Shown here: one piece after another, positions 15,578 through 37,537 of the stretch
Layout: every line of letters begins with the position of its first letter
How positions within the stretch are numbered: the first letter of the stretch is position 1
Source of the DNA: a virus
Strand: one strand, 5' to 3'
Virus record (IMG/VR): IMGVR_UViG_3300046346_000045
Location: 1 to 37,537 of that record
Length of the DNA stretch: 37,537 bases
Position numbers and translations under genes: made by a program
The notes under the pieces: generated by a model
What the model was told of the DNA's origin: nothing
What the model saw: only the letters and a program-made list of their open reading frames with translations
Database searches by the model: none

Positions 15578-15616
15578 ATGAATAAATGTATAGCAATGAT
15601 TTTAGGGAGCATAATG

Positions 15617-15838
15617 ATGCCAATAACTGCAATAATAATAGGAGCATTAATGTTATCGGGTGGTATCGTAATTTTATATTCTAAAATAATGCATAAAGAT
15701 GAAACAAAAGTAGAAAAAGCAATAGAATCAATTGCCGAATCAAATATAGAAAACGCATTAAATTTACCATCTGGTAGTTTAGAAGGGAAGCTAGATTTTA
15801 TGGTTCAACCAATAGAAGAAGAACCTAAAAAAGAATAA
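15617..15838 (+). CDS. Single-helix membrane protein (holin- or inner-spanin-like candidate)
   Basis: The frame is open from an ATG at 15578 with no ribosome site. AGGGAG at 15604-15609 fits starts at 15614 or 15617, so I chose 15617 (73 residues). One hydrophobic helix (about 3-24, ITAIIIGALMLSGGIVILY) is followed by a charged, helical, acidic tail. Phage genomes often carry such short proteins with a membrane anchor and a cytosolic or periplasmic tail near lysis genes. No lysin is beside it; it lies among fibres. Lysis is a guess. Confidence 0.6.
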   Translation: MPITAIIIGALMLSGGIVILYSKIMHKDETKVEKAIESIAESNIENALNLPSGSLEGKLDFMVQPIEEEPKKE

Positions 15839-15860
15839 CAAACATAAGGAGATAGGGAAA

Positions 15861-16766
15861 ATGCCAATTATAAGCGTTCAAATAAACGAGCCAGGTCAAG
15901 CCGGAGTTACGCCCGGTATGTGCAGAATTCTTACCAATGATACATTAGCTGAAGTTATAGTAACCGGATATTTAAATCATATTTTTGCTGAAAACATTCC
16001 GTTAATGAATGGTATGATGGCTCTTGTCCAAACAAAACCAACGCCTAACTCTTCTGTAACAAATGCAAGTTGGTTAGCCGTAACATTTGCATCAGGTAAC
16101 TGGTCATTAACTCCAACCGCTGTAGCTCCTGGCTCAATTGCAACTCCAACCATTGCGAATCATATCGCTGCATTTACTGATACCATTGGCTCATTAGGTG
16201 AAAATGTTTCGACTGCAATTAATGGTGGAAATATTCAAGCAGGTTTAAGTGGAACAGCGGGATTCCTAGCTTCTTTCCCAGCTACAGCATCAAAGGGTTC
16301 TTTACGTTTAACAGCAGTAGCAAACACAGGGGACACATTGGTTACATTATCAAATGTCGCTCATGGTCAAGCTTCTGTTTATTCAATACCAGATGCAGCT
16401 AATGCAGTAGGTCGAGTTCTTGTTGGCGCAACTGCAACCCCTTTTACAAGTGGACATTTATTGTCAGCTTCTGGGACTGGTGGACTTGTTGCAGATTCTG
16501 GAGTAGTAGCAGCAACTGTTCAATCATCATCAAATATTAAGGCTGTAACAACAGCAAGCATTGGTGGAGCTGGAGCAGGTCCTTTAACTGTAACACAGGC
16601 AGCGTGCACTTCTAGTAGCGTCATAATCTGTCAAGTTAAATCATCAAGTAATCCATGCTACGTAATTACAGTGGTTCCAGGTTCTGGAAGTTTTACAGTG
16701 ACTATGAATGCCGACCCAGGTGCTAGTTTAATATTAAGTTACGTTTTATTCGTAGCTGCTCAATAG
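15861..16766 (+). CDS. Fibre-like virion protein, paralogue with shared N-terminal module
   Basis: The protein has 301 residues. The N-terminus (MPIISVQINEPGQAGVTPG) aligns with those at 14072 and 16781: the pattern is MPxxxxxxNxPGxxGxxP, a short strand with TNDT, then VxGYLxHIxA and an ALVxTxPTPNSS segment. The middle is low-complexity Ala/Ser/Thr. The C-terminus (VTQAACTSSSVIICQVKSSS to GSFTVTMNADPGAS) is a common fibre-tip fold. GGAG precedes the ATG. Confidence 0.72.
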   Translation: MPIISVQINEPGQAGVTPGMCRILTNDTLAEVIVTGYLNHIFAENIPLMNGMMALVQTKPTPNSSVTNASWLAVTFASGNWSLTPTAVAPGSIATPTIANHIAAFTDTIGSLGENVSTAINGGNIQAGLSGTAGFLASFPATASKGSLRLTAVANTGDTLVTLSNVAHGQASVYSIPDAANAVGRVLVGATATPFTSGHLLSASGTGGLVADSGVVAATVQSSSNIKAVTTASIGGAGAGPLTVTQAACTSSSVIICQVKSSSNPCYVITVVPGSGSFTVTMNADPGASLILSYVLFVAAQ

Positions 16767-16780
16767 GATAGGAGATTTAA

Positions 16781-17890
16781 ATGCCAATTATCAGCGTCGA
16801 TGTTAATGCCCCGGGAATGTCCGGGGTAAAACCTAAGGCAATTTTTATTGATACAAACGATACTGCAGATGAAGTTGTAGTTGCGGGATATTTAGATCAT
16901 ATTATTGCTCAAGGGATTCCAATTGCCAATTGGGAAATTGCATTAGTTACAACGCGTCCAACTCCTAATTCATCTGATATAACCACAGCATGGTATGGTA
17001 TAACTTTTTCTAATGGTCAATGGAGTTTAGTAGCACAAGGTGGAGGAGGAGCAGGCGTTATTCTTCCAACTATAGTAAATAGTATTGCTGTATTTTACGA
17101 CACTGCAGGAACTATATCTTCTACCGCAGCAACTGCAACTAACGACGGCAATATACAGGCGTATGGTAACTTAATAGCAGGTAAAGTAGAAGGAACCCAA
17201 CCTGGGGAACTTCATGTGTATCCTGCAACTGAAAATTCAGGTTCTGTTATTGTAAAAGCTATAGATGTTACATCTGGAGATCATAGTTCAACTATAGTTA
17301 ACAGTGCAGATTTGACGCAAGCTAAAGTATATACTTTGCCTAATACTCAGAACTTTACCGATCCTCCTACTATTGCAGTGCTCGATAATTTCGGTGCTCC
17401 TACCTCTGGAAATTTAGCACTATGGGGATCACATACGGGCGCTTTGTATGATGGAGGGCCACCCTCTCCTACTATTTTCCTAGCTTCTCAAACTGCCAAT
17501 TTAACATCTGGAACATTAACTACTCTTGATGCTAGCGGCATTGAACTTGTACCAAATCCAAATCCTGGGTTTCCTGGATATGTATTATTAGTAAGTTATG
17601 TTGTAATCAAGTTTACATATGCAACCACTCCGTATGCAAATACGACTGGAAACTTTTATATGGCTTACGATTCAGCAGGAACAACAGTAGCATCAAAATT
17701 ATTGCCTCAATCTGTTTTTACCGCAACGGAAAACAGCTTATTTGTTATATATCCAGACCCAGCTATTAATGATTATCTATTATCTGCAACAGAAGGGAAT
17801 GGATTGTTTTTTGTTGCAGATAATAATATGACAGATGGAGATAGCGGAGTGCAAGTTACTGTTTATTACAGTATAGCTACTACCTTTTAA
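16781..17890 (+). CDS. Fibre-like virion protein, chimeric module arrangement
   Basis: The protein has 369 residues. Its N-terminal ~85 residues (MPIISVDVNAPGMSGVKPK) match the protein just upstream, while its C-terminal ~130 residues match the end of the fibre at 12762-14057. It is thus a hybrid of modules found in two neighbours. Its role is probably accessory fibre or alternative receptor binding. GGAG lies before the ATG. Confidence 0.72.
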   Translation: MPIISVDVNAPGMSGVKPKAIFIDTNDTADEVVVAGYLDHIIAQGIPIANWEIALVTTRPTPNSSDITTAWYGITFSNGQWSLVAQGGGGAGVILPTIVNSIAVFYDTAGTISSTAATATNDGNIQAYGNLIAGKVEGTQPGELHVYPATENSGSVIVKAIDVTSGDHSSTIVNSADLTQAKVYTLPNTQNFTDPPTIAVLDNFGAPTSGNLALWGSHTGALYDGGPPSPTIFLASQTANLTSGTLTTLDASGIELVPNPNPGFPGYVLLVSYVVIKFTYATTPYANTTGNFYMAYDSAGTTVASKLLPQSVFTATENSLFVIYPDPAINDYLLSATEGNGLFFVADNNMTDGDSGVQVTVYYSIATTF

Positions 17891-17910: not shown

Positions 17911-18102
17911 ATGGAAAATCAAAATGGATCGATAATTTTGTGTTTGATGGTCGCTATTGCGTGTGCTTCTATTTATGCCGTTAGCTACTATGTTTGCAAT
18001 TCGGATGATAAAGAGGAGGAGCCCGCGCCTGTGGAACAAATTGATATATATATTAAGACAGGCAACTTCCTAGAACCTGAAGATAAATTTCTTTTTACTT
18101 GA
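17911..18102 (+). CDS. Small single-helix membrane protein, unknown
   Basis: The protein has 63 residues. A hydrophobic helix at about 8-28 (IILCLMVAIACASIYAVSYY) is followed by an acidic tail starting DDKEEEPAPVE. AGGA lies 12 nt before the ATG. It is the last gene of the rightward virion operon, just before the terminator. It could act in lysis (holin-like) or superinfection exclusion; nothing in the sequence decides. Confidence 0.55.
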   Translation: MENQNGSIILCLMVAIACASIYAVSYYVCNSDDKEEEPAPVEQIDIYIKTGNFLEPEDKFLFT

Positions 18103-18105
18103 ACC

Positions 18106-18122
18106 GGTGTCATTTTGTCACC
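18106..18122. repeat. 17-bp inverted repeat, operator-like
   Basis: GGTGTCATTTTGTCACC has arms GGTG/CACC, extended to CGGTG/CACCG by the flanking bases, plus an inner CA/TG pair. It shares 13 of 17 positions with the palindrome at 18326-18342. It starts 3 nt after the stop of the last virion gene. Confidence 0.4.
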
Positions 18123-18201
18123 GTCTGAAATCAGTCGTACGATTTTTTCGTATAACTGAAAATAGTTCGCCAACTCATGGTAAAACTGGATAAAATAATA
18201 G

Positions 18202-18229
18202 GGGTGATTATAATATTAATCACCCTTTT
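18202..18229. terminator. Bidirectional Rho-independent terminator
   Basis: A perfect 9-bp stem (GGGTGATTA 18202-18210, TAATCACCC 18217-18225) with a 6-nt loop is followed by TTTT on the + strand. On the - strand it is followed by TATTATTTTAT. It would stop both the rightward fibre transcript and the leftward transcript from the 18-20 kb genes. Confidence 0.85.
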
Positions 18230-18325
18230 GATTGGATGCGAGTTATCTTAGTTGGTTAACCTATGTTTTGTTTTGAAATTGAGTTAGGAAAAGATAGAGT
18301 TAGCTGTGATGCTTTAATTTGAGGT

Positions 18326-18342
18326 GGTTACAATTTGTAACC
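18326..18342. repeat. 17-bp palindrome, operator-like
   Basis: GGTTACAATTTGTAACC is a perfect inverted repeat of 8 bp per arm around one central base. It lies 15 bp from the end of the leftward gene at 18357 and is related to 18106-18122 (consensus GGTnnCAnTTTGTnACC). It may be a protein binding site. It has no U-rich tail, so it is not a good terminator. Confidence 0.5.
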
Positions 18343-18356
18343 GGTTGAAACGATAT

Positions 18357-18578
18357 TTATTCGGATTGCGGAAAAGTCGCTATGCCTTCTTTTAGCTTTA
18401 AACCGATTTGGTGCAAAGTCTCATCAATCTGAACTATTGCTTCTTGAGTGTCCGTTAAAGTCTCAGCTATCTCATTTAATGAGTAAACCTGGTTTCTTGT
18501 TTCAAGAAGAACTTTTATTAATTCTTTCTGGAAAATCTCTTCAGACCAAGGCATAGCATCGATATCTTTCGCTTCCAT
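18357..18578 (-). CDS. Small helical protein, unknown
   Basis: The protein has 73 residues, mainly helical and acidic, with heptad-like spacing in ELIKVLLETRNQVYSLNEIA and the following segment, so it may self-associate by coiled coil. It has its own strong promoter (18614-18642) covered by tandem repeats, which suggests regulated expression. No family recognised. Confidence 0.6.
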   Translation of the reverse strand: MEAKDIDAMPWSEEIFQKELIKVLLETRNQVYSLNEIAETLTDTQEAIVQIDETLHQIGLKLKEGIATFPQSE

Positions 18579-18613
18579 GTGAAATACCTATAATTGAATT
18601 ACGATAGAAAGCC

Positions 18614-18642
18614 ATTATACAACATGTGCCTTTTAGTTACAA
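18614..18642 (-). promoter_or_regulatory. Sigma-70 promoter for the leftward gene at 18357-18578
   Basis: On the - strand, TTGTAA (18637-18642) is followed by a 17-bp spacer and a perfect TATAAT (18614-18619). It is overlapped by the tandem 26-bp repeats at 18621-18672. Confidence 0.75.
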
Positions 18643-18672
18643 GTTCAACATGTAAGCAATCCTTACAAGTTC
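18621..18672. repeat. Two tandem 26-bp repeats over a promoter (operator candidate)
   Basis: The unit is AACATGT-N9-TTACAAGTTC, seen at 18621-18646 and immediately again at 18647-18672. All 17 defined bases are identical and the N9 differ. The first copy covers the spacer and -35 of the leftward promoter; the second reaches into the 3' end of the gene at 18663. The spacing of about 2.5 helical turns suits cooperative repressor or activator binding. Confidence 0.6.
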
Positions 18673-18848
18673 AGTTCGTCGGGATTTCCGACACACTGGC
18701 ATTCATTTTCATGTTTAAATTTTAAATACTTAATCATAAAATCTATCTTAATCTCATCTTCTTGGGTTACTGCAGGGAATGTCATTTCTTCTCCGAACTG
18801 AGAGGCTAATTGAAGCAACCATTCAAGAGCTTCTTTTTCTTCTTTCAA
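18663..18848 (-). CDS. Small acidic protein, unknown (TTG start)
   Basis: The protein has 61 residues and is helical and acidic. It begins with TTG at 18848; an in-frame TGA two codons upstream excludes a longer start. A 9-codon ORF (MNRKGILDS) ends with its TGA overlapping this TTG, so translational coupling is possible. No family recognised. Confidence 0.5.
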   Translation of the reverse strand: MKEEKEALEWLLQLASQFGEEMTFPAVTQEDEIKIDFMIKYLKFKHENECQCVGNPDELNL

Positions 18849-18876
18849 CTGTCAAGGATTCCTTTACGGTTCATTT

Positions 18877-19194
18877 TTAATGAGATACTTCATCATCACC
18901 CTCGTATCTTTGAGATCCATCATATGCAATTATTTCTTCAAGGGTGGAAATTACTAAGCCAGCCTTCTCTAAATCTTGCCGTTGCATTTTTAAAGTTTGT
19001 TCAAAAATAGAATATAATGTTAATTTTGCTCTTCTAGCGTCTTCTTGGCAAAAATTTTTCTGTGTAGACTGTGCATGGTGCATAATATTTATAGCAATTT
19101 CATAAGTTGCAATAAAATTCTCAATACTAATCGCGGTCTTTCCATCTCCGCACGGCTGAGTTACGGTGAACCCTTTAAACTTCTTTTTTTTCAT
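18877..19194 (-). CDS. Small helical protein, unknown
   Basis: The protein has 105 residues. A lysine-rich start (MKKKKFKGFTV) is followed by two or three helices and an acidic tail. The start lies 2 nt after the stop of the preceding gene (TAATTATG), so it is part of a leftward operon. No motif recognised. Confidence 0.6.
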   Translation of the reverse strand: MKKKKFKGFTVTQPCGDGKTAISIENFIATYEIAINIMHHAQSTQKNFCQEDARRAKLTLYSIFEQTLKMQRQDLEKAGLVISTLEEIIAYDGSQRYEGDDEVSH

Positions 19195-19196
19195 AA

Positions 19197-19469
19197 TTAG
19201 TACTTCGTATCCAAGCTATTATATTTAATCTTAGACTTATCATATTCGATGGCATCTAAAATATTATCCATATCGCTTTTAAGAATATCCGATATTATAT
19301 TAATAATGAACGTACTTAATAAAAGCGCAACTATCATATAGCTATTCATTTCAAATGTACCATCGGTATAGCAATGCCACGTCCAACCGGAAATTACAGC
19401 TACAAAGATAAATCGGATTCTATTATTTAATTTAGAATAAAACCGGAGTTTATCTACCTTTTTAATCAT
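19197..19469 (-). CDS. Small membrane protein with two transmembrane helices
   Basis: From ATG 19469 the protein has 90 residues; an earlier in-frame ATG at 19490 would add 7. The 19469 start overlaps the TAA of the preceding gene closely (ATGATTAA) and looks translationally coupled. Hydrophobic segments lie at about 20-35 (RFIFVAVISGWTW) and 45-62 (MIVALLLSTFIINIISDIL). The tail is charged. Holin, immunity or superinfection-exclusion roles are possible; it follows the double-glycine peptide genes, so an immunity role deserves thought. Confidence 0.6.
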   Translation of the reverse strand: MIKKVDKLRFYSKLNNRIRFIFVAVISGWTWHCYTDGTFEMNSYMIVALLLSTFIINIISDILKSDMDNILDAIEYDKSKIKYNSLDTKY

Positions 19470-19770
19470 CGTCTCTGAGAGTAATATCATCGCATATAAT
19501 TCTTGAGTATCTGTTGTTCATTAATATTTTTGGGCATTCATCATTTTCATCCCATATTATATCCGGATGATCATAGAATCTTTCTATGGCTACATCTGTA
19601 TCTGGCATACAATAAGTTGAAATCCAATAATCTATATCATCTTCTTCCCAAAATCTTTGTCCATTGATGATCTTACAATTTTTCGGGTATTCCCAATTCT
19701 TAACGAATCGATACATTCCGTTCTTGTTTTGATCTATTTTTTTCTTAACTTCCTTTTTATCTAATAGCAT
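19462..19770 (-). CDS. AlpA/MerR-like winged-helix protein
   Basis: The protein has 102 residues. The first 50 follow the AlpA/excisionase pattern: LLDKKEVKKKI, a MYRFVKN recognition segment, EYPKNCKII, then QRFWEEDDIDYWI. Such proteins bind DNA as regulators or excision factors. The C-terminal half is acidic and unlike the family. It lies just downstream of a double-glycine peptide gene in the same operon, so it may regulate this cassette. There is no integrase to partner. Confidence 0.55.
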   Translation of the reverse strand: MLLDKKEVKKKIDQNKNGMYRFVKNWEYPKNCKIINGQRFWEEDDIDYWISTYCMPDTDVAIERFYDHPDIIWDENDECPKILMNNRYSRIICDDITLRDDD

Positions 19771-19792
19771 CCTGCTCTCGATTATTTATTAT

Positions 19793-20098
19793 CTATTTGC
19801 CATCGGACGTCCACATTTTATATGAGTCTGCGAAAATCATCGCATACATGGTCCCTACTCCGGCGTACGTTCCACCAGCAACACAACCGTAAATTCCGCC
19901 TGTTCGTGCTCCGTTTAGGCACCCGAAAAATGCGGCGTTGCCCATCAATATTGCCATTAACCCGTAATCAATTTGAGATCCAGTTGGAGGGGCCGAATCA
20001 ATTGGGCTATAAGGTAAATCACCCCAGGCTGGAATATCCGAAGACCATCTACCAGCTCCTGAAACCATAGAGCAAATATCGTTATTCAGTTTCTTCAT
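19793..20098 (-). CDS. Double-glycine-leader, bacteriocin/microcin-like peptide precursor
   Basis: The precursor has 101 residues. The leader MKKLNNDICSMVSGA fits the class II bacteriocin/microcin leader (hydrophobic positions spaced through a short helix, ending VSG-A/G), with cleavage expected after residue 15. The core of about 86 residues is Gly/Ala-rich and hydrophobic, with several GxxxG-type motifs (GGIYG, GGTYAGVG) and two Cys (about residues 59 and 71) that could form a disulfide. This resembles pore-forming class II peptides. AGGAAG precedes the ATG, inside the end of the upstream gene. No C39-peptidase transporter is in the window, so export would rely on the host. Confidence 0.7.
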   Translation of the reverse strand: MKKLNNDICSMVSGAGRWSSDIPAWGDLPYSPIDSAPPTGSQIDYGLMAILMGNAAFFGCLNGARTGGIYGCVAGGTYAGVGTMYAMIFADSYKMWTSDGK

Positions 20099-20453
20099 AA
20101 AGTCTTCCTTCTTTTACTTTTTCAACAACCTCTTCGTGCCCTTTTTCGGCTTCTTCCCATGTAACATATCGATCGCAATATGAGTCATGTAAATCTCCCT
20201 TAAACACCATAGTTTCAAAAAGAATAGGCGGCCCCATTCCCCAGTTATGGTCTCTTTCAAGAAAAACGGTTGAAACTACACAATCATCTACAACGGTTCT
20301 TCCTACAATCTTTAACTCCGGATGTTCCATATATTGCTTAGCATGTTCTAAGGTTTGCCCACGCTTTGGCACCTTCCCTTCAAGATAATAAGAGCTTGAA
20401 AGAATGCTCTCCGTAAAAACCTGTAATTTTTCTAATGCTTCTTCTGGACTCAT
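20082..20453 (-). CDS. Conserved-looking 123-aa protein between two leader peptides
   Basis: The acidic protein has 123 residues: a helical N-terminus, a central beta region (VSTVFLERDHNWGMGPP, ILFETMVF) and a helical end (TWEEAEKGHEEVVEKV). It looks like a small protein type I have seen in phages and bacteria without a known function. Its ATG overlaps the TGA of the upstream peptide gene (ATGA), and its 3' end overlaps the start of the next. Tight coupling to both peptide genes makes immunity or maturation a fair hypothesis, but its wide occurrence would argue against a dedicated role. Confidence 0.65.
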   Translation of the reverse strand: MSPEEALEKLQVFTESILSSSYYLEGKVPKRGQTLEHAKQYMEHPELKIVGRTVVDDCVVSTVFLERDHNWGMGPPILFETMVFKGDLHDSYCDRYVTWEEAEKGHEEVVEKVKEGRLYEETE

Positions 20454-20704
20454 CCTGTATACAACTCCGGATAAATGGTTTTCATAATCAGAGTGTAATG
20501 AGCATAGGCTAATAAGTCGCTTCGCATGCTATGGAAACTCTCTCCAGCATCAATACGCGCCTGGAGTTCCGGAGGGGTTGACCCATCAAATTGGGGGGTA
20601 AAAACGACGTAATTATAATTATTTATACTACTATAATCTTCACCTGACATTTTAAGCCCGGCACCTGATACATGGCTTAAATCTTCTTTATTTATTAACT
20701 TCAT
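20450..20704 (-). CDS. Double-glycine-leader peptide precursor
   Basis: The precursor has 84 residues. The leader MKLINKEDLSHVSGA matches that of the 19793-20098 product in length and pattern (Leu and Val spacing, VSG-A end). The core of about 69 residues is polar, with aromatic residues (SSINNYNYVVF) and a C-terminal amphipathic helix, and has no Cys. It is therefore not a classic pore-former; a signalling or two-component partner role is possible. AGGA precedes the ATG. It is the first gene of its operon, after a terminator. Confidence 0.65.
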   Translation of the reverse strand: MKLINKEDLSHVSGAGLKMSGEDYSSINNYNYVVFTPQFDGSTPPELQARIDAGESFHSMRSDLLAYAHYTLIMKTIYPELYTG

Positions 20705-20726
20705 GGATTATCCTTATTGTAAAATA

Positions 20727-20751
20727 AGGGGACATAAGTAGTGCGTCCCCT
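20727..20751 (-). terminator. Terminator/attenuator before the leader-peptide operon
   Basis: On the - strand a perfect 7-bp stem (AGGGGAC / GTCCCCT) with an 11-nt loop is followed by TATTTT. It separates the recombination operon from the peptide operon 23 nt before its first ATG. That close position would also suit attenuation. Confidence 0.65.
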
Positions 20752-20765
20752 CACAAAAAGATTAC

Positions 20766-20800
20766 CATTAAATAGCCAAAAAGATAATATTTATTTAATG
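20766..20800. repeat. 9-bp inverted repeat
   Basis: CATTAAATA (20766-20774) and TATTTAATG (20792-20800) are perfect inverse complements separated by 17 nt. They lie between the lipoprotein gene and the terminator at 20727. It could be a weak second terminator or an operator. Confidence 0.45.
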
Positions 20801-20811
20801 ATTTGGATAAC

Positions 20812-20976
20812 CTACTTTTTAGTAGCTATTTTGATCTCGTATTTCTGCCCATGACCCAGGTCGGGTCTATAGGTTACCTCTTTAGTGTACCCGGTATTTG
20901 AGCATCCGAAGAGCCAAGCCAATATGAACAGGATGCCAAGTAACTCTAAAAATGAGTAAGCGGTGTGTTTTTTCAT
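20812..20976 (-). CDS. Small lipoprotein, outer-spanin-like
   Basis: The 54-residue product starts at ATG 20976 with GGGG 6 nt upstream. A basic N-terminus (MKKH), a hydrophobic helix (FLELLGILFILAWL) and a lipobox LFGC with Cys25 form a lipoprotein signal peptide. Only about 30 mature residues follow. Short outer-membrane lipoproteins of this kind are the usual form of phage o-spanins, which fuse the envelope membranes during lysis. No inner partner is recognised beside it unless the 22-residue peptide upstream takes part. Confidence 0.7.
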   Translation of the reverse strand: MKKHTAYSFLELLGILFILAWLFGCSNTGYTKEVTYRPDLGHGQKYEIKIATKK

Positions 20977-20986
20977 TTAATTACCC

Positions 20987-21055
20987 CTATAAAAAAGCAA
21001 GAATAAGTACGTAAGCGACATACGCAATAAAGCACCAAAACATAATAGCAATCAT
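20987..21055 (-). CDS. 22-residue hydrophobic membrane peptide
   Basis: This micro-ORF starts 1 nt after the recT stop (TAGcATG) and ends 10 nt before the lipoprotein start. The product begins MIAIMFWCFIAYVAYV and is hydrophobic throughout, enough for one membrane span. The exact intergenic fit suggests it is translated. It could be a toxin-like or lysis-related peptide. Conservation would be the deciding evidence. Confidence 0.5.
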   Translation of the reverse strand: MIAIMFWCFIAYVAYVLILAFL

Positions 21056-21056
21056 G

Positions 21057-21881
21057 CTATTGCCCCATTCCAGCTAATTTATCGGCTAATCGGTCTGCCT
21101 GGCTAGCCTGCTTTTGCATTTCAAAGACATTAGTATCAATATTAGCCTCTACTAGCGCGGCTTTTCCAATTACATCTAGGTTCTGCCCGTCATATTCATG
21201 AGCTTCATCGAAAGATATTCCAGCATTTAAGTTAACTGAAGTAGGAGCAAGCTTCAAGATACGGCGAATAACCGTCTTTTGCGCCATTTGATCATAATCA
21301 GATATCCATGGTCCTTCATTTGGAGTTTTAGAGCGCGCTCGTACTTTTTCTATATCTTCAATATCCATGAAATCAAAATGTTTCTCTCCATCTTTCATGG
21401 TTACTATTGCGTAGTACCCTATTGCTTGACCTTTATTTCCTATTTTTCTTTTATGAATAATTAAATCTTTATTGCCAAGTTCAATTGAAAATTCATCGTT
21501 TCCATATACTGTAAATGCTTTTATTGTGGATATTACACCTGTTCTATATGCCATCTCTATCATACCTCTATACCCTAATTGGACTGTCAGTTTTGTAGTT
21601 CTTGTGTCTCCGTCCCACCTTGGAATTAGGTATACCATTCCGGCTATGCCTGGCTCGAGTCCCATCTGAGCGCAGGACATTATAGCACCACATATAGATT
21701 CAACGGTGCATTTATTTAATTTTTGGCTTTTTGATAACTCTACATAGAAAAGACGGATCAATCGCTTAGCGCACATTTCGTTTGGAACTATATTAGATAG
21801 GAGATCTTCCATCTTAACTAAAGTTCCATATGCTGGTATTACTATCTTTGTTGATACTTCATTTGTTGCTACTTCGTTCAT
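21057..21881 (-). CDS. recT: RecT-family single-strand annealing protein
   Basis: The protein has 274 residues. Typical RecT core segments are present: SICGAIMSCAQMGLEPG (about 62-78), a VYLIPR strand, KLTVQLGYRGMIEMAYRTG (about 95-115), and the downstream DYDQMAQKTVIRR helix (about 210). RecT coats and anneals single strands made by a partner exonuclease. Its start overlaps the stop of the YqaJ exonuclease gene by 4 nt, the usual recE/recT-type pair. They would drive recombination and concatemer formation during replication. Confidence 0.93.
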   Translation of the reverse strand: MNEVATNEVSTKIVIPAYGTLVKMEDLLSNIVPNEMCAKRLIRLFYVELSKSQKLNKCTVESICGAIMSCAQMGLEPGIAGMVYLIPRWDGDTRTTKLTVQLGYRGMIEMAYRTGVISTIKAFTVYGNDEFSIELGNKDLIIHKRKIGNKGQAIGYYAIVTMKDGEKHFDFMDIEDIEKVRARSKTPNEGPWISDYDQMAQKTVIRRILKLAPTSVNLNAGISFDEAHEYDGQNLDVIGKAALVEANIDTNVFEMQKQASQADRLADKLAGMGQ

Positions 21882-22810
21882 GTTACTTCTTGCCCTTCTT
21901 GTTGTTGTTTAAATATAAATCGTCGTGATGCTGCACCGGTTTTTACATACTTATTATGCAATTCTTCATTCTCTTCTTTGAATGCTTGCATATCAAATCT
22001 TCTGGATTCCGCAGCTTCTTTCCATGTAGCTGCTATTTTACCAGAGGTTGTTAGCAAAGTATCTTTTTGTCCCATATATATCTTAATTTTATCCTCTAAT
22101 TTATCCTTTAATTCAGAGGCTTTTTTGATAGATTCCCTAACATGGTTAAGTTTCTCTAGATTTTCCTCTATGTCATTATCAGCTGTCACCTGGTCTTCGA
22201 TAGAACGATACCCATAAAGACTCAAAACCTCCGCACCATTTGATGGCGTAGGAGCAATATTTTTAGTTACACACTTCCAAAATTCCCGATATTTCCTAAG
22301 CATCATTTCTTCTAATTTCGGATTGCGCTCTATCGTGTAATACCTGAAGTCATTACCTCGTATTAGAACTGCGACATGTGCTTTTTGAACGTTGGCAACC
22401 AGCATGTAATGAGATATCTGCAGAAGATAATGATCCGGAATTTGATTATGATTCGTTTGTCCCCATCCTTCATCATGAGATGCGGTTTTAGCTTCGAATA
22501 TTGCATCATCTCCGACTCTTCCATCTATATTCCCTGCTAAGTAGGGAATCTCAGGATGAACGATAAGGTTATTATCAATCGTTACCTTTAGTCCTGTTTC
22601 ATGCTCAAACCAAGCTTTTACCGCGGGCTCAAGAAAGTTTCCAGCTTTAATATAAGGATTATCCGAGATATCTTTTCGGTGGATTTGTCTTGTCTTTTCC
22701 TGCCAAAGTTGAACAATGTTTCCCCACGGAGATACACCGCAAATTACCGCGGCATCGCTGCCGCATATATAATTTAATCTCTCTTCTAATTGCTCTGACG
22801 TTAGGCTCAT
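21878..22810 (-). CDS. YqaJ-type (lambda-exo-like) 5'-3' exonuclease
   Basis: The protein has 310 residues. The PD-(D/E)xK catalytic set is visible: GSDAAVICGVSPW (17-29), E61 in FLEPAVKAWFE, D96 in GNIDGRV, E106-A-K108 in IFEAKTAS, and Q131 in YLLQISHY. It resects double-strand ends to give 3' tails for the RecT-like partner. The C-terminal third is a charged coiled coil. ATGA overlaps couple it to the genes on both sides. Confidence 0.93.
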   Translation of the reverse strand: MSLTSEQLEERLNYICGSDAAVICGVSPWGNIVQLWQEKTRQIHRKDISDNPYIKAGNFLEPAVKAWFEHETGLKVTIDNNLIVHPEIPYLAGNIDGRVGDDAIFEAKTASHDEGWGQTNHNQIPDHYLLQISHYMLVANVQKAHVAVLIRGNDFRYYTIERNPKLEEMMLRKYREFWKCVTKNIAPTPSNGAEVLSLYGYRSIEDQVTADNDIEENLEKLNHVRESIKKASELKDKLEDKIKIYMGQKDTLLTTSGKIAATWKEAAESRRFDMQAFKEENEELHNKYVKTGAASRRFIFKQQQEGQEVT

Positions 22811-22968
22811 CTAATACGCTCCGCAGCTGATGTGAAATCTTTCTTTATACAATGAAAAGCATGCTCTACCTTTTTAAAATCTTTATATACACCAAAAAGA
22901 ATTTGACATATTTTTTTAGAACAAAGATACAAACCTACACATGAAATTAAAAATAATATTGGTGCCAT
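22807..22968 (-). CDS. Small membrane-anchored protein upstream of the exonuclease
   Basis: The 53-residue product starts at ATG 22968 with GAGGG 4 nt upstream. Residues 3-28 are hydrophobic (ILFLISCVGLYLCSKKI); the rest is basic and helical. Its TGA overlaps the exonuclease ATG, so it is a real coupled gene. Function unknown. Confidence 0.6.
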   Translation of the reverse strand: MAPILFLISCVGLYLCSKKICQILFGVYKDFKKVEHAFHCIKKDFTSAAERIR

Positions 22969-22989
22969 TTTCCCTCTTCTCCTTTTGTT

Positions 22990-23091
22990 TTAATCTTCGT
23001 CATCATCTATATAATCTTCTTCTTCAAACCAAACGCAAATTCGGCTACAATCATTTTCTTCTGTATATTCATCATAATATTCCATACCCAT
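22990..23091 (-). CDS. 33-residue acidic protein, unknown
   Basis: The product starts at ATG 23091, overlapping the TAA of the upstream gene (TAATG) with GGAGGTGA 8 nt before. It is strongly acidic and aromatic (MEYYDEYTEENDC), ending in a run of Asp/Glu. Small acidic phage proteins of this kind often mimic DNA or bind nucleases, but nothing here proves that. Confidence 0.5.
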   Translation of the reverse strand: MGMEYYDEYTEENDCSRICVWFEEEDYIDDDED

Positions 23092-23231
23092 TATTCTTCA
23101 CCTCCGTTTGAATCGCCCATATCCATTAATTGACGATCGTCTTCCCTATCCTCGTACATAAAAAAGAAATTCAGCATCTCATTCTGATAGTCACTAATTC
23201 TTTGGTTTAACTCTGCCTGACTCGTATTCAT
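23091..23231 (-). CDS. Small acidic protein, first gene of the leftward recombination operon
   Basis: The 46-residue product starts at ATG 23231 (MNTSQAELNQRISDY) with GAGGG 9 nt upstream. A longer frame from 23300 is rejected because that ATG lies inside the promoter spacer. It is helical and acidic. No family recognised. Confidence 0.6.
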   Translation of the reverse strand: MNTSQAELNQRISDYQNEMLNFFFMYEDREDDRQLMDMGDSNGGEE

Positions 23232-23278
23232 CTTTCTGCCCTCATGATTTTGGTCTTCATTATTGTCGACCTGAAACA

Positions 23279-23307
23279 AGAATACATTGCCGCCATGCAT
23301 TTGTCAA
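23279..23307 (-). promoter_or_regulatory. Strong leftward early promoter
   Basis: On the - strand a perfect TTGACA (23302-23307) is followed by a 17-bp spacer and TATTCT (23279-23284). It should drive the genes from 23231 through the exonuclease and RecT-like genes to the lipoprotein. It stands back-to-back with a rightward promoter across an A/T-tract (23308-23340). Confidence 0.85.
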
Positions 23308-23332
23308 TATTTATTTTAAGAAAAAATATTTT

Positions 23333-23361
23333 TTGGTTTTTTTTACCTTACCTGCTATACT
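23333..23361 (+). promoter_or_regulatory. Rightward promoter for the gene at 23396
   Basis: An extended -10 (TGcTATACT, hexamer 23356-23361) and a weak -35 TTGGTT (23333-23338) lie 17 bp apart. It lies 35 nt before ATG 23396. Confidence 0.65.
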
Positions 23362-23395
23362 CCCTGCATTACATACACCAATTTTGGAGATAAAA

Positions 23396-23587
23396 ATGAA
23401 AACAGAAATGAAGAGCGTTAACTTTACCGTTCGCATGACAGAAAAAGATGTGGCAAAAATTAAGCGCATTTGCTATAGAGACGAGCTGAAACCTGGTGTT
23501 TTTGCTTATGCAGCAATCATGGATGGCGTGGAAAAGCTTATTGAGAGGCAGAAAATCCATGGCGTTCAATGCATGCAACCATTGTGA
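23396..23587 (+). CDS. Small basic protein, ribbon-helix-helix-like regulator candidate
   Basis: The product has 63 residues and starts at 23396 (GGAG 6 nt before), not at the upstream ATG 23333, which lies in the promoter. Residues 6-16 (KSVNFTVRMTE) look like the DNA-contacting strand of Arc/CopG-type proteins, followed by two helices (KDVAKIKRICYR and AYAAIMDGVEKLIE). Placed divergently from the leftward early promoter, it is a good candidate for a phage switch regulator. Fold assignment is by eye only. Confidence 0.55.
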   Translation: MKTEMKSVNFTVRMTEKDVAKIKRICYRDELKPGVFAYAAIMDGVEKLIERQKIHGVQCMQPL

Positions 23588-23793
23588 GAATTGGTCTCTA
23601 AGCCGAATTGATTGCTTCTGCAGGCGCATATAAGCCACTCTAAGGGCACGGAAAACATTTCCCCTGTGTCTAGGGTGAGCTCGAGGAAATCTTGCATCTC
23701 GCTTGATTGTATTTCGTAGGAATCAGGAGGCTCGTAGTATTCCTCTGACTCGAAGTCCTCTTTCTTGTCGCTTAGAAGTTTGAAAAATGACAT
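23566..23793 (-). CDS. Acidic protein, unknown; convergent overlap with the RHH-like gene
   Basis: The product has 75 residues from ATG 23793 (MSFFKLLSDKKEDF), chosen because GGAG lies 9 nt upstream; the frame extends five codons further to 23808. It is acidic, with a Tyr/Pro-rich stretch (EYYEPPDSYEIQ) and a C-terminal Cys/His group. Its 3' end overlaps the + gene by 22 bp, so the two transcripts could interfere. No family recognised. Confidence 0.5.
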   Translation of the reverse strand: MSFFKLLSDKKEDFESEEYYEPPDSYEIQSSEMQDFLELTLDTGEMFSVPLEWLICACRSNQFGLETNSHNGCMH

Positions 23794-23870
23794 ATAATTA
23801 CACTCCATGTGTTAGATACCATAAATTTAGTATTACACAGAAACGCAAAAATTAAATAGAAGGATAAAAA

Positions 23871-24323
23871 ATGAAAGATGACTCAAATGTGATCTCGTTA
23901 AACAAAAATAATCACGGATACAAAGTGAGCGAGGTTTCTTCGGGGGAGTTATTTTCTTTGGTAGTTTCTAAACTACAATTAGAATGGGGTCGTCATCCTG
24001 AAAAAAATGATATTGCACGATTTATTGGTCTGAATCGGAATCAGCTTAATTGCATGCTATTTTTTAATAACCAGCGCGGGCAGAAGGACGCTATGTTTAA
24101 GGATGCTATACCATTTTTGAAAATGGAATCATCCAAAATACACAAATTTTTACACAGTGCTCATAAGATTATAGATGAGAAACAAAATTATATTAGACTT
24201 TTAGATTTTGTTGGTTACTTTAGAAGTGAAAGGTATAGAAAAATTCGAGAGGATCCGGAATGGTATGGTTCTTTTATGACTTTTGAACAGGAAGAACAGT
24301 TTAAAGAATTGATGAGGTATTGA
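23871..24323 (+). CDS. HTH-like protein, unknown
   Basis: The product has 150 residues and is basic and helical. The segment ELFSLVVSKLQLEWGR followed by PEKNDIARFIGLNRNQL reads like a helix-turn-helix (about 30-65). The C-terminal half has two long helices. GAAGGA lies before the ATG. It begins the rightward run leading to the replication initiator and may be a regulator or replication accessory. Confidence 0.55.
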   Translation: MKDDSNVISLNKNNHGYKVSEVSSGELFSLVVSKLQLEWGRHPEKNDIARFIGLNRNQLNCMLFFNNQRGQKDAMFKDAIPFLKMESSKIHKFLHSAHKIIDEKQNYIRLLDFVGYFRSERYRKIREDPEWYGSFMTFEQEEQFKELMRY

Positions 24324-24325
24324 AA

Positions 24326-24478
24326 ATGGACGAAAAAAAGCCGGTTATAACTAATAAGAGGACTTTGGCTCATGAGGGCTTCGATATTCTTAAAAATTAC
24401 AACCGGCACAACAACACATTAGACGGAGACCGCATGAGAACCAAGTTAAGCATCCAAGGAATTAAATGCAAAAGATAG
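24326..24478 (+). CDS. 50-residue basic protein, unknown
   Basis: ATG 24326 starts 2 nt after the stop of the preceding gene, with GAGG 8 nt upstream inside that gene. The product is basic (Lys/Arg/His-rich; starts MDEKKPVITNKRT) with no recognisable domain. Confidence 0.45.
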   Translation: MDEKKPVITNKRTLAHEGFDILKNYNRHNNTLDGDRMRTKLSIQGIKCKR

Positions 24479-24496
24479 TTTTCTTTAATTACGATC

Positions 24497-24533
24497 TAAC
24501 GTAATATGAACGACGTTATATATTTAATATAAC
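24497..24533. repeat. Nested inverted repeats in AT-rich leader of the initiator gene
   Basis: TAACGT (24497-24502) pairs with ACGTTA (24513-24518). GTTATAT (24515-24521) pairs with ATATAAC (24527-24533) around ATTTA. The two palindromes share bases, so only one can form at a time. Possible initiator autoregulation site or secondary origin element. Confidence 0.5.
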
Positions 24534-24545
24534 ATAAAAATTTTC

Positions 24546-24578
24546 CCCTAAACCAAATTTAGTACGTTTGATTTAGGG
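24546..24578. repeat. 12-bp hairpin before the replication gene
   Basis: CCCTAAACCAAA (24546-24557) and TTTGATTTAGGG (24567-24578) pair at 11 of 12 positions around a 9-nt loop. It ends 28 nt before the initiator ATG. There is no U-tract after it on the + strand, so it is more likely a leader regulatory hairpin than a terminator. Confidence 0.5.
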
Positions 24579-24606
24579 CCAGACATTCCCAACAACAGGA
24601 AAGCCA

Positions 24607-25533
24607 ATGTTAATGCATCAGACTACACAAAGCAACCTTTCAGCGCAATTTTCTAGCTATTTACCTCAAAACAGCCATAATTTACCCGATATTAAAGTAA
24701 TCTATCGCACTCAGGAAGAGATAGAACATCTTGAGACGATACGGTACGCCATACTCCAGCATAAAAAATCACGCAGACGACTAGCTGCAGGTATTCTCCT
24801 AAAAATAATCGGTTGGAGAGAAATGGAAGGTAAAAGGGGCGAGTGCGTCACCAGGCAGGAGAAGTTCGGCAAGGAAATACGTAAGTTCGGATATGACAAG
24901 GATCTAACCGCAAGACAAATAAAAAGGGTCATGGAATCATTAGTGAAGCATGGACTTATTCGATGTGAGCGTAGCGATAGGTTTGATTATAGGTCCGTAT
25001 ATAGATGTGAGACGACCAGCTTAGGACGAGACGCATACTTCCTCTACATCAAAAATAATGAGGGTCCAATCCAGATAAAAGCGCTCGACTTACCCACAAA
25101 ATCTGTGGATAACGATTGTATAACTCAAAAAAATTGCGGTACCGAAATAAAAATGGCACCTCGAAATCCTCTAAATTTGGTCAAAAATTGGTCAAAATCG
25201 GGCCAATTTCAAAAAAATGGCACCTCTAATATTAATATTAATATCTATAAAAGAAATATTAATATTAATATGGGATGTTCAAAAATTGAACAAATAACAA
25301 ACCATATCTTTTCTTTTTTCCATAAACCATACCTCGAACCCGGAGAAAAAATGATGAGGACACCAAAGGACTGGGCTAAAAACGGATTAGCACGACAAGC
25401 ACATGAGGTTACGTTAGATCTTCTCTGCAACAAGGAGATGAGCGAAGAAGAACATCGAAGCAAATACGACGAATTGTTCTTTAAGCAACTAGCTAAGATA
25501 CAACGCAAAAGGAAGAGAGAAGACAAGACATGA
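24607..25533 (+). CDS. Phage replication initiator (winged-helix, origin within the gene)
   Basis: The basic protein has 308 residues. A winged-helix-like region lies at about 78-140 (TRQEKFGKEIRKFGY, then a segment with TARQIKRVMESLVKHG, then IRCERSDRFDYRSVYRC), similar to the N-terminal part of phage replication proteins that bind iterons. The middle (about 160-222) is low-complexity because its DNA holds the origin repeats. The C-terminus has a helical domain with DWAKNGLARQAH. AGGA precedes the ATG. By analogy with lambda O, it would bind the internal origin and pass DNA to the DnaB encoded downstream. Confidence 0.75.
   Translation: MLMHQTTQSNLSAQFSSYLPQNSHNLPDIKVIYRTQEEIEHLETIRYAILQHKKSRRRLAAGILLKIIGWREMEGKRGECVTRQEKFGKEIRKFGYDKDLTARQIKRVMESLVKHGLIRCERSDRFDYRSVYRCETTSLGRDAYFLYIKNNEGPIQIKALDLPTKSVDNDCITQKNCGTEIKMAPRNPLNLVKNWSKSGQFQKNGTSNININIYKRNININMGCSKIEQITNHIFSFFHKPYLEPGEKMMRTPKDWAKNGLARQAHEVTLDLLCNKEMSEEEHRSKYDELFFKQLAKIQRKRKREDKT
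25177..25197 (+). repeat. Iteron pair TTGGTCAAAA, 11-bp period
   Basis: Two perfect 10-mers at 25177 and 25188 are one helical turn apart. A related inverted copy (GGCCAATTT, 25201-25209) follows. They are likely initiator binding sites. Confidence 0.65.
25228..25271 (+). repeat. Two 17-bp AT-only palindromic repeats (unwinding element)
   Basis: AATATTAATATTAATAT occurs at 25228-25244 and 25255-25271, 27 bp apart. The last 16 bases of each copy are self-complementary. They encode an Asn-Ile alternation in the protein, which suggests DNA rather than protein selection. Confidence 0.7.
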
Positions 25534-25645
25534 CCGGAGCTTTTAGGGTGAGATTATCGCATTATAAGCAAATATGGAATTTGCAATATTGGGGCTTTGT
25601 AAGCTAAAGTAAATTATGAACACATCAAATTTGGAGAAAAGAGAA

Positions 25646-25834
25646 ATGAACCTATTAACTCAAGATTTAGTTTCCGAAGTTTCAGGCGGAGCCCCAGGCG
25701 ATTTCGAGTATTACGGGGAATATGTACTGGAGGAGCTTGAAAGCGGTTTGCAGAGACTTTCTATGTTCATGGTTATGGAAGGAGAGCTTATGCTAGAACA
25801 AGACGCTAGCGGGGCCCTAGTAAGTTTAATTTAA
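25646..25834 (+). CDS. Double-glycine-leader peptide precursor (third copy)
   Basis: The precursor has 62 residues from ATG 25646 (GGAG 10 nt upstream); an in-frame ATG at 25616 has no ribosome site. The leader MNLLTQDLVSEVSGG is a textbook double-glycine leader, followed by APGD. The core of about 47 residues is acidic and amphipathic, with two Met-rich helical stretches (SMFMVMEGELMLE), no Cys and net negative charge. It looks more like a signal or modified-peptide precursor than a cationic pore-former. It stands alone with a terminator just downstream. Confidence 0.7.
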   Translation: MNLLTQDLVSEVSGGAPGDFEYYGEYVLEELESGLQRLSMFMVMEGELMLEQDASGALVSLI

Positions 25835-25841
25835 GAACGGT

Positions 25842-25884
25842 GCGCAGTGCGAGTTTCTTAACTATTTTCTCCCGCTGCGCTTTT
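25842..25884 (+). terminator. Rho-independent terminator after the third leader peptide
   Basis: The 12-bp stem (GCGCAGTGCGAG 25842-25853, CTCCCGCTGCGC 25869-25880) has one mismatch and one G-U pair. It has a 15-nt loop and is followed by TTTTATT. It starts 8 nt after the stop codon. Confidence 0.8.
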
Positions 25885-25902
25885 ATTCTAAAAGGAGTTA
25901 GA

Positions 25903-26295
25903 ATGAAACATGAAGAGTCACTTAGTCAGATAGCACTACTAGAGTGGTTCAAGTTGCGTTACCCTACTTTGGGCGGTTTGCTGGTTGGTTATCCGGCGGG
26001 TGTCTATTTAGGGATAACGCAACGCGTTAGGATGAAGGCTATGGGTTTGACGCCCGGCTTTCCTGACCTGATGCTTTTAGTGCCAAAGGTTTTTGAGATA
26101 TATCATCCTGGTTCTCCCCCTAAAAGGGAGCGGCATTTTATACCTGGAATGTTTATAGAAATGAAATCGGCAAAGGGGAAATTGTCTAAAGTTCAGAAGG
26201 AATACCATGAGAAATTAAGAGTGTGGAATTATACCATTGTCATTGCATACAGCTTTGAAGAAGCACAAGAAGAGATTAAAAAATATTTAGAATAG
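25903..26295 (+). CDS. VRR-NUC domain nuclease
   Basis: The protein has 130 residues from ATG 25903 (AAAGGAG 6-8 nt upstream); the frame extends back to 25840 but that part spans the terminator. The VRR-NUC/PD-(D/E)xK signature is complete: a GYPAGVYLG segment, GFPDLMLL with the catalytic Asp, FIEMKSAKG with E-x-K, then a KVQKEYHEKL helix with the conserved Gln. Phage members are thought to act as structure-specific (Holliday-junction type) nucleases that resolve recombination or replication intermediates. Confidence 0.9.
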   Translation: MKHEESLSQIALLEWFKLRYPTLGGLLVGYPAGVYLGITQRVRMKAMGLTPGFPDLMLLVPKVFEIYHPGSPPKRERHFIPGMFIEMKSAKGKLSKVQKEYHEKLRVWNYTIVIAYSFEEAQEEIKKYLE

Positions 26296-26318
26296 ACGCC
26301 ATCCATGGCTTAGGATTT

Positions 26319-26588
26319 TTATTCCTCTTCCTTTTTTCTCATTAATTTTTGTGAGTCTGCATAATGCCAACTTTCCATTCTTTTAAATGTAATTGGCTTT
26401 ATTTTCTTCGATCTACAGAAATCTAAATATATTAAATATAAATTATTAGCTGCTTCTCGTTCTATTATTATTTCTGCATATATAGATGAAGAATCGTTAT
26501 AGATATTGCTTATTGCAGTTCCTATCATTGATGTAAACTCTTCTGCAGTTATTAGGCTTCTTAATGAACTTTCTACTTCGTAAAACAT
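26319..26588 (-). CDS. Small helical protein, unknown
   Basis: The product has 89 residues and is helical (SSLRSLITAEEFTSM and NNLYLIYLDFCRSKK), with a basic/acidic end. It is the last of four leftward genes whose starts and stops nearly touch (26588 to 26592). It faces the VRR-NUC gene. No family recognised. Confidence 0.55.
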   Translation of the reverse strand: MFYEVESSLRSLITAEEFTSMIGTAISNIYNDSSSIYAEIIIEREAANNLYLIYLDFCRSKKIKPITFKRMESWHYADSQKLMRKKEEE

Positions 26589-30813: not shown

Positions 30814-31023
30814 ATGGCGCCAGACGAAGAGTTAACAGAAACACAAAAGATAGAAGCTTGTTTCCCTAAGCAGGAGCTACCGTATGAGCAACATCTGCTC
30901 ACAGCATTAGCATCCCTTAAGGAGTTAGAAGAAAACGTTTGGAGTGTAAATTATGAGCTTGCTCAAACAAACAAAGAGCTTCAGGGTATTAAAGAAGCAA
31001 TTTGGGCCATCACAGAAAGATAA
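30814..31023 (+). CDS. Small coiled-coil protein, unknown
   Basis: The product has 69 residues; the C-terminal half has heptad spacing (LKELEENVWSVNYELAQT). AAGGA lies 9 nt before the ATG. Immediately upstream of dnaB; a loader or helicase-accessory role is conceivable from position only. Confidence 0.55.
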   Translation: MAPDEELTETQKIEACFPKQELPYEQHLLTALASLKELEENVWSVNYELAQTNKELQGIKEAIWAITER

Positions 31024-31051
31024 AATATACACTTTAAGCAGGATGCTAATC

Positions 31052-37199: not shown

Positions 37200-37283
37200 C
37201 TGCCTGTACCTCAGTTGGTTAGAGGGGATTTTGGAGTTAAAGCCTCCGGGGTCAAGTCGTTGGTTCGATTCCAACCAGGTGGA
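37200..37283 (+). tRNA. tRNA-like element, anticodon uncertain
   Basis: The acceptor stem is CTGCCTG (37200-37206) with CAGGTGG (37276-37282), seven pairs including two G-U. TA is at positions 8-9. The D arm is CCTC/GAGG with loop AGTTGGTTA (37209-37225). The T arm GTTGG-TTCGATT-CCAAC (37259-37275) is canonical. The middle is not: a 5-bp stem TGGAG/CTCCG (37232-37236, 37244-37248) with loop TTAAAGC leaves about eight extra bases after the D arm. The alternative GATTT/AAAGC stem gives a long variable region and no U33. No CCA is encoded. It is either an atypical tRNA or a decayed or repurposed one. Confidence 0.55.
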
Positions 37284-37395: not shown

Positions 37396-37410
37396 ATGGA
37401 AGGTATGTTT

Positions 37411-37537
37411 ATGGATGAACAAAATTTAGGAAGCGGAGCTTCGCCTGAAATGCAACAACCCGGAGAGATGTCTGAAAAGACGTTTACCCAGGCTGATGTT
37501 AATGCGCTTATTGGCCGTGAAAAGCAGATAGCCGCTC
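37411..37537 (+). CDS. Scaffolding protein, N-terminal part (cut by window end)
   Basis: Forty-two residues are visible, acidic with FTQADVNALIGREKQIAA, a segment found at the start of many P22-type scaffold and related phage structural proteins. ATG 37411 is preferred: GGAAGGT lies 6 nt upstream, while the in-frame ATGs at 37396 and 37405 have no such site. The frame is open to the last base. The remainder is the frame at 2-571. Confidence 0.8.
   Translation, partial: MDEQNLGSGASPEMQQPGEMSEKTFTQADVNALIGREKQIAA

Follow-up and report, generated by a model that had tools for sequence, protein, structure and literature searches.

The 37,537-base virus record IMGVR_UViG_3300046346_000045 (the window, analyzed over its full length) is a near-complete tailed-phage genome that encodes three small precursors, pep1, pep2 and pep3, each opening with a 15-residue double-glycine leader. 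The leaders likely direct all three to a C39-peptidase ABC exporter (PCAT). The genes for pep1 and pep2 recur in related phages as a cassette with a small membrane protein, the three cassette proteins diversify together, and the leaders are constrained at particular positions. We favor, at about even chances, the reading that the cassette is a microcin-like system of two peptides that the phage carries together with an immunity protein but with no exporter, and that a PCAT of the host would export the peptides.

Leaders and their constrained positions

The leaders are MKLINKEDLSHVSGA in pep1, MKKLNNDICSMVSGA in pep2 and MNLLTQDLVSEVSGG in pep3. A previous sequence-only reading had placed three double-glycine-leader open reading frames (ORFs) here, and both its leaders and its coordinates hold. 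The same applies to its description of the cores: pep2 is Gly-rich (17%) and contains two cysteines, and pep1 and pep3 are acidic, with isoelectric points (pI) of 4.7 and 4.1; pep2 of the window is likewise acidic (pI 4.4). The longest ORF of pep3 begins at 25616, and the ATG at 25646 is preceded by a GGAG-containing stretch and yields the leader length of the relatives. We composed a strict leader pattern after the leaders had been seen: M, L/I at -12, V/I at -4, S/A at -3, G at -2 and G/A/S at -1, in peptides of 45–130 amino acids (aa). With any start codon allowed, it occurs three times in the window. By chance, 150 dinucleotide shuffles gave a mean of 0.0067 occurrences and at most one, and shuffling the residues inside each of the 56 gene products gave 0.004.

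Relatives were collected by a TerL scan (18 loci on 17 contigs), and 12 of them were compared with the window gene by gene. The survey gave 25 leaders in 11 phages: eight of pep1, eight of pep2 and nine at the pep3 locus. Each of them reads as a 15-residue leader in which -12 is L or I, -4 is V or I, -2 is G and -1 is a small residue, and the endings GA, GG and GS are all present among them. The VSG-(A/G) ending on which the sequence-only reading had relied is kept in the wider form (V/I)xG(A/G/S), with VAGA, VAGS, VYGG, VGGA and ICGA also occurring; no such peptide was found in the more distant relatives G013 and G014 (TerL 64–69%). Many of the phage leaders are preceded by Shine-Dalgarno-like sequences. 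The starts of pep1 in G009 (GTG) and L061 (TTG) and of pep3 in G007 (GTG) were picked to give a 15-residue leader. Those of G009 and L061 pep1 and of window and G001 pep3 lie inside longer ORFs and were taken to give 15 residues, so that leader length in these four is not independent evidence. The scan left out G002, G003, G005, G010 and G015 (4.6–12.4 kb), save for the ORF list of L004. The counts exclude L004/L005, which is nearly identical to part of the window, and L068, related at 87% to pep3 of G012. L003, a GC-rich phage that matched over 16 residues, was judged a false relative and dropped.

The first 21 leaders (eight pep1, eight pep2, five pep3), tabulated by position, all begin with M and carry L or I at -12, V or I at -4 and G at -2. 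Position -1 is A in 13, G in seven and S in one, position -3 is S in 19 and A in two, and the remaining positions vary widely. The sequence-only reading had tied itself to constraint on the leader, and position-specific constraint is what we observed. In six close ortholog pairs, compared by uncorrected proportions, an amino-acid change was found at 3 of 62 sites at positions -12, -4, -3, -2 and -1 and at 34 of 131 sites in the rest of the leader. The ratio of nonsynonymous to synonymous proportions (pN/pS) is 0.10 at these positions and 0.51 elsewhere in the leader (pS 0.46 and 0.51; Fisher p 0.0003). This set was picked after viewing the leaders; the set -12, -7, -4, -2 and -1, fixed in advance by the literature on the protease LahT, gives 0.19 versus 0.44 (p 0.006). 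In the cited sections of the LahT study, leader residues -4, -7 and -12 sit in hydrophobic pockets (PMC6363468). The constraint fits recognition by a C39 peptidase exporter. Pooled pN/pS is 0.19 for the cores and 0.39 for whole leaders, and the pep1 core gives 0.21 against G001. With pN/pS low in both, selection acts, on the whole, on the cores as well as on the recognition positions.

A recurrent cassette and a separate pep3 locus

The sequence-only reading treated the three peptides as equivalent. This has to be given up: pep1 and pep2 form a cassette with the small membrane protein, and pep3 occupies a locus of its own. Eight contigs carry the cassette, namely the window, G001, G004, G007, G009, G012, G018 (L049) and L061; six of them, the window included, were found independently of the peptides, and G018 and L061 were found through them. 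Among the 12 relatives compared, five have exo and recT and extend beyond recT (G001, G004, G007, G009 and G012), and all five carry the cassette, as does the window; G016 seems to stop within recT. The orthologs in the seven other contigs are 28–75% identical to the window protein for pep1 and 28–79% for pep2. The pep1 and pep2 genes have a four-base overlap in G004, G007, G012, G018 and L061 and a longer one in G009, and they are separated by an intervening ORF in G001 and the window. The small membrane protein (60–97 aa) is encoded downstream of pep2 in all eight cassettes, directly in six and past one small ORF in the window and L061. Its hydropathy profile has two hydrophobic regions in seven of the eight and one in the window's protein. 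The cassette is situated in the exo–recT strand cluster, away from the structural genes, and is more divergent than exo.

The cassette proteins change in step. When pep1, pep2 and the membrane protein are each compared between contigs, over 28 pairs that are not independent, their identities correlate with one another at r 0.94–0.95 (0.95 for membrane protein and pep2). Correlations of the cassette are 0.72–0.80 with exo, 0.35–0.43 with recT and 0.68–0.82 (21 pairs) with a lipoprotein-like ORF upstream of pep1. Two cassette types can be distinguished: one in the window (G000), G001, G012 and G018, the other in G004, L061 and G007, with G009 more distant. Membrane proteins of different types are 15–30% identical. 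By tblastn, the window's protein matches only in G001, G012 and G018 and misses the second type, so that a common origin of both types is argued from position and weak alignment. Between G004 and the window, TerL is 92% identical and pep2 is 29% identical; the cassette therefore has a history of its own. In G004, an extra leader-like stretch with an ISGG ending and a very short core stands immediately before pep1 (L031:1916-2080). It has no start codon at the 15-residue place and is possibly a decayed leader peptide gene.

At the pep3 locus, a leader peptide is encoded upstream of the VRR-NUC gene in nine of the 11 contigs with a VRR-NUC homolog (G000, the window, and G001, G004, G006–G009, G012 and G016); none was found upstream in G013 and L061. 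The distance is at most 500 bases in seven of the 11, an arrangement seen in none of the codon-block shuffles (300 per contig), and exceeds 1 kb in G006 and G012. The leaders of G004, G007, G008 and G009 at this locus are weaker because they came from patterns relaxed at -3; for G007, the GTG start was also chosen to fit. Their cores are short, and those of G007, G008 and G009 are alike by eye.

Table 1. Coordinates of the leader peptide genes and neighboring features in the window
Feature	Position	Strand	Basis
pep1 precursor: 15-aa double-glycine leader (20660-20704) and 69-aa acidic core	20450..20704	-	ORF
pep2 precursor: 15-aa double-glycine leader (20054-20098) and 86-aa core	19793..20098	-	ORF
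pep3 precursor: 15-aa double-glycine leader (25646-25690) and 47-aa acidic core	25646..25834	+	ORF, upstream of VRR-NUC gene
Small membrane protein, 97 aa, candidate immunity protein (alternatively holin)	19197..19490	-	Position after pep2, co-variation with pep2
Lipoprotein-like ORF, 54 aa, upstream of pep1	20812..20976	-	Counterpart in 7 of 8 cassettes; PHROG Rz-like spanin at E 0.33 only
123-aa ORF between pep1 and pep2	20082..20453	-	Outside the conserved cassette
102-aa ORF between pep2 and membrane protein	19462..19770	-	Weak AlpA/excisionase-like match (Pfam E 0.16, PHROG E 0.0083)
VRR-NUC domain protein, neighbor of pep3	25903..26295	+	PF08774 E 3.1e-6 in 1 of 50 window proteins scanned; PHROG resolvase match

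Whether the lipoprotein-like ORF belongs to the cassette is uncertain, because its correlation with the membrane protein is about that of exo. ORFs similar to the 123-aa ORF occur elsewhere in G001, G013 and G011, and it is unlike the ORF found at that place in G001. By tblastn, none of the 12 relatives compared has a homolog of the 102-aa ORF. Scanning 18100-26400 for promoters and terminators gave fewer matches than the shuffle expectation (22 versus 29.2 and 5 versus 5.8) and were not used.

Likeness to bacteriocins and competing readings

In the favored reading, the infected cell would synthesize the peptides, and an operon-like cluster that follows exo and recT would supply pep1 and pep2. 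A host PCAT would bind the leader via the hydrophobic residues at -12 and -4, cleave after GG, GA or GS and export the cores. Outside, pep1 and pep2 would act jointly as a two-peptide microcin-like bacteriocin, with the Gly-rich helical hairpin of pep2 inserting into the inner membrane of the target cell, and the small membrane protein downstream of pep2 would shield the producing cell. From its separate locus, pep3 would supply a third exported peptide, to which we assign no role. Export, toxicity and immunity are inferred, as is use of the host exporter, the latter because a search of 20 virus records (the window and 19 others, many of them fragments) found no C39 domain; the membrane fusion protein was not searched. 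The sequence-only reading had noted the lack of a transporter in the window, which is confirmed for the C39 peptidase domain. Its proposal that the phage uses the host's exporter stands as far as the C39-type leaders and the 20 records go.

Published systems are compared here as described in sections of the cited papers. The closest are the class II microcins, such as microcin V and microcin E492 (PMC10233263, PMC9746304, PMC8021565). Their leaders are given as 15–18 aa (PMC10233263) or as 15–20 aa ending in GG, GA or GS (PMC13174018), and they come with adjacent membrane immunity proteins and PCAT export (PMC10233263, PMC9746304, PMC13174018). The phage genes share the 15-aa GG/GA leader, a pep2 precursor of about 100 aa with a Gly-rich predicted helical hairpin and a disordered half, and an adjacent small membrane protein. 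Precursors are 82–87 aa for pep1 and 96–101 aa for pep2, with cores of 67–72 and 81–86 aa, so that both peptides, judged by their lengths, combine a double-glycine signal with the small core (about 5–10 kDa) that defines the class. A PCAT encoded alongside or in the same genome, another mark of the class, was not found among the 20 virus records. The immunity proteins of class II microcins are adjacent, membrane-located and 51–216 aa long, a profile that the 60–97 aa cassette protein fits as a candidate; a profile of the cassette protein found no sequence in the PDB. Unlike the class II microcins of Enterobacterales, the phage system is phage-borne and has two adjacent precursors; no sequence similarity was detected, the Gly content is lower, and it is known here from genes alone.

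Structure prediction offers a hint in the same direction. The two cysteines of pep2 are retained in all eight orthologs and its C-terminal half is Gly-rich. AlphaFold2 predicts a disordered first half followed by helices 45–67 and 69–99, which form a helical hairpin, at a mean predicted local distance difference test score (pLDDT) of 57.8. Among the four PDB chains that Foldseek listed for this model, the microcin E492 complex is top in probability (0.44, E 9.2); chain A of that complex was assumed from its length to be the microcin. A second comparison gave Z 5.2 with a root-mean-square deviation of 4.4 over 55 aligned residues, tied with an unrelated respiratory chain (Z 5.3). For pep1, a small mixed fold was predicted (mean pLDDT 70.7), and the model had no useful PDB match.

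Three other systems share parts of this arrangement. The Caulobacter glycine-zipper bacteriocin CdzC/CdzD/CdzI (PMC5380434) likewise consists, in a Gram-negative bacterium, of two adjacent small precursors, of 86 and 84 aa, and a small membrane immunity protein; it differs in that it comes with a type I exporter, CdzAB, and contains an RTX-like signal region, and pep1 of the phages is not Gly-rich (3–7% Gly). The gonococcal (Neisseria gonorrhoeae) Nap peptides (PMC11798529) also combine several GG-motif peptides with a candidate immunity protein. They belong to a horizontally acquired bacterial island, act in producer autolysis and have cationic cores of 16–36 aa; the phage cores are longer and acidic to near-neutral. 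Sublancin, from the Bacillus subtilis prophage SPbeta (PMC6391423), is a phage-encoded peptide with a cognate immunity protein, for which the present phages offer a candidate. SPbeta is temperate and sublancin a glycosylated Gram-positive product; the phages described here yielded neither a C39 domain nor an integrase. Sublancin is co-encoded with its exporter, SunT. In the sections used here, metagenome work on ribosomal peptides and phages (PMC11118758) shows no phage-encoded leader peptide. Among the papers listed for phage-encoded double-glycine or microcin peptides in the open-licence PMC literature, at most 15 per search, no title or abstract opening described an exporter-less cassette in a phage.

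Several observations weigh against the favored reading. Database searches were unrewarding: neither NCBIfam and Pfam (E 10) nor PHROGs (E 1) gave a family for any of the three window peptides. The leader-model check proposed by the sequence-only reading likewise came back empty, as TIGR01847, the bacteriocin leader model of NCBIfam, matched none of nine records at E 10 and none of 19 leader N-termini searched against NCBIfam; this model is 15 positions long and, in 14 control genomes, matched six and exceeded its cut-off in one. A pep2 profile, with a single usable pattern, found no relative in the genome_contigs collection, and L061 pep2 found nothing in plasmids; of the three peptides, pep2 was the one searched in bacterial genomes and plasmids. 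At position -7, which matters in LahT, seven of the 21 leaders have L and seven have T, and the G000–G001 pair of pep3 is lax (leader pN/pS 0.95, core pN/pS 0.53). Four of the eight membrane proteins are linked to that of the window by position and a weak alignment (17–27%) only. The similarity of pep2 to microcin E492 is non-significant, comes from a low-confidence model and is a hint only. Most cores are acidic or neutral, in which they differ from many pore-forming bacteriocins. The pep2 cores contain 10–17% Gly (six cores counted; G004 and G007 left out), compared with a mean of 23.8% reported for microcins (PMC10233263). Finally, what a phage without a recognized integrase would gain from killing other cells is not obvious.

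Some matches were treated as chance: pep2 to an SMK toxin subunit (Pfam E 0.67 in one of six members; PDB E 0.22), and L061 pep2 to a peptide synthase (PDB E 0.09) and to one Vibrio phage (E 0.7). The named phages held no match for window pep1, window pep2 or G012 pep3.

The same genes could also serve lysis, which we consider improbable though worth keeping in view because no lysis gene was recognized in the window. Here the lipoprotein-like ORF, pep1, pep2 and a holin-like membrane protein would be the phage's own lysis genes, with the peptides damaging the envelope either from the cytoplasm or once exported. Scans of the 50 window proteins against Pfam (E 0.01; 15 families) and PHROGs (1e-5; 25 of the 29 families listed) recognized no endolysin, holin or spanin. 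A PF00959 lysozyme was found in one of 11 records, G013 (L041:8965-9384, just past the fibre gene), a relative in which no peptides were found; other lysin families were tested solely via the window scans. A class II holin would also be compatible with a small two-segment membrane protein, and the lipoprotein-like ORF has its weak Rz-like spanin match. In Neisseria, bacteriocin-like GG peptides drive autolysis (PMC11798529). Yet lysis from within needs no C39 export leader, and the recognition positions are strongly constrained; the cassette also stands apart from the structural genes. An endolysin that escaped recognition elsewhere in the genome is likely, given that the function of about 87% of PHROG families is not known.

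The location in the exo–recT strand cluster and the divergence beyond that of exo would also suit a weapon or shield against rival phages: exported peptides at the envelope would block superinfection or disable the rivals' cells, and the membrane protein would spare the phage's own host. We regard this as quite unlikely, as superinfection exclusion proteins normally need no cleavable export leader. Microcin E492 binds ManYZ, discussed too as a route of lambda DNA entry, but lambda susceptibility was unaffected in the context of the immunity protein (PMC8021565). Signaling between infected cells, or competition for the exporter as a decoy, is doubtful still further, and would concern pep3 above all, which is small and acidic and neighbors the VRR-NUC gene and no membrane protein gene. 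The pep1 and pep2 cores (67–86 aa) are long for pheromones and accompany a membrane protein, and a decoy alone would not need the core conservation that the pooled pN/pS indicates. Gram-positive quorum peptides do use double-glycine leaders as well (PMC6363468). There remains a slim chance that the N-terminus serves a purpose other than C39 recognition, as a site for another protease or as a partner-binding helix. This would sit well with the unmatched leader models, the unconserved -7 position and the phage records in which no C39 exporter was found; it would leave unexplained why the 15-aa length and the -12, -4, -2 and -1 pattern repeat over three unrelated cores and why GG, GA and GS interchange, as C39 enzymes allow.

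Genome, host and biological meaning

The window can be considered nearly complete because a single scaffold protein of a relative (240 aa) matches both of its ends, with residues 1–41 at 37405-37536 and residues 52–240 at 2-568. The portal is P22-type (PF16510), and the families recognized among the window proteins include RecT, YqaJ, an Sf6-type small terminase, VRR-NUC and DnaB. Three fibre-like genes, at 14072, 15861 and 16781 (14072-17890), have related N-termini, and similar genes are found in several relatives. A single tRNA gene, tRNA-Leu(GAG), lies close to the record end, at 37200-37283. The tyrosine integrase family PF00589 was found in none of 11 records and the resolvase family PF00239 in one of 12 (G014, C1:5789-6193, E 2.2e-38), a relative without any such peptide found in it. 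The 102-aa ORF, with its weak excisionase-like match, leaves room for a temperate past.

As to the host, TerL has a relative in at least one contig of genome_contigs (64%, 36.8 kb, L054), in a metagenome-assembled genome (MAG) labeled uncultured Bacteroidetes; the 21.5 kb of L054 examined yielded no leader peptide. The DnaB of the window (31010-32407) is 39% identical to the match in that MAG. Among the plasmid matches listed, 12 of 1,330, it is 52.5–54.2% identical over 96–100% of its length (Pseudomonas, Halomonas, Legionella), and three further plasmid records beyond those listed lie at 60–80%. Because phage contigs are prone to misbinning and DnaB is closer to the plasmid proteins, we do not rely on the Bacteroidetes label. 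A DnaB homolog is present in just two of the 12 relatives compared, and phages can acquire this gene; a gammaproteobacterial host, suggested by DnaB, is therefore a guess.

Export of double-glycine peptides is known as a trait of bacterial competition and signaling, and the published phage case we found, sublancin, belongs to a prophage. We propose, tentatively, that phages without a recognized integrase have their host secrete a two-peptide microcin, together with an immunity protein and a third peptide, through the host's own exporter, for use against neighbors or rival phages or even as an endolysin substitute. The 25 leaders provide a defined peptide set for further work. If the cassette were instead a peptide-based lysis system, this would matter too. 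If the microcin-like reading is true, a phage lineage without a recognized integrase relies on the exporter of its host and itself spreads a bacteriocin-like cassette, and such phages could alter bacterial competition around the infected cell.

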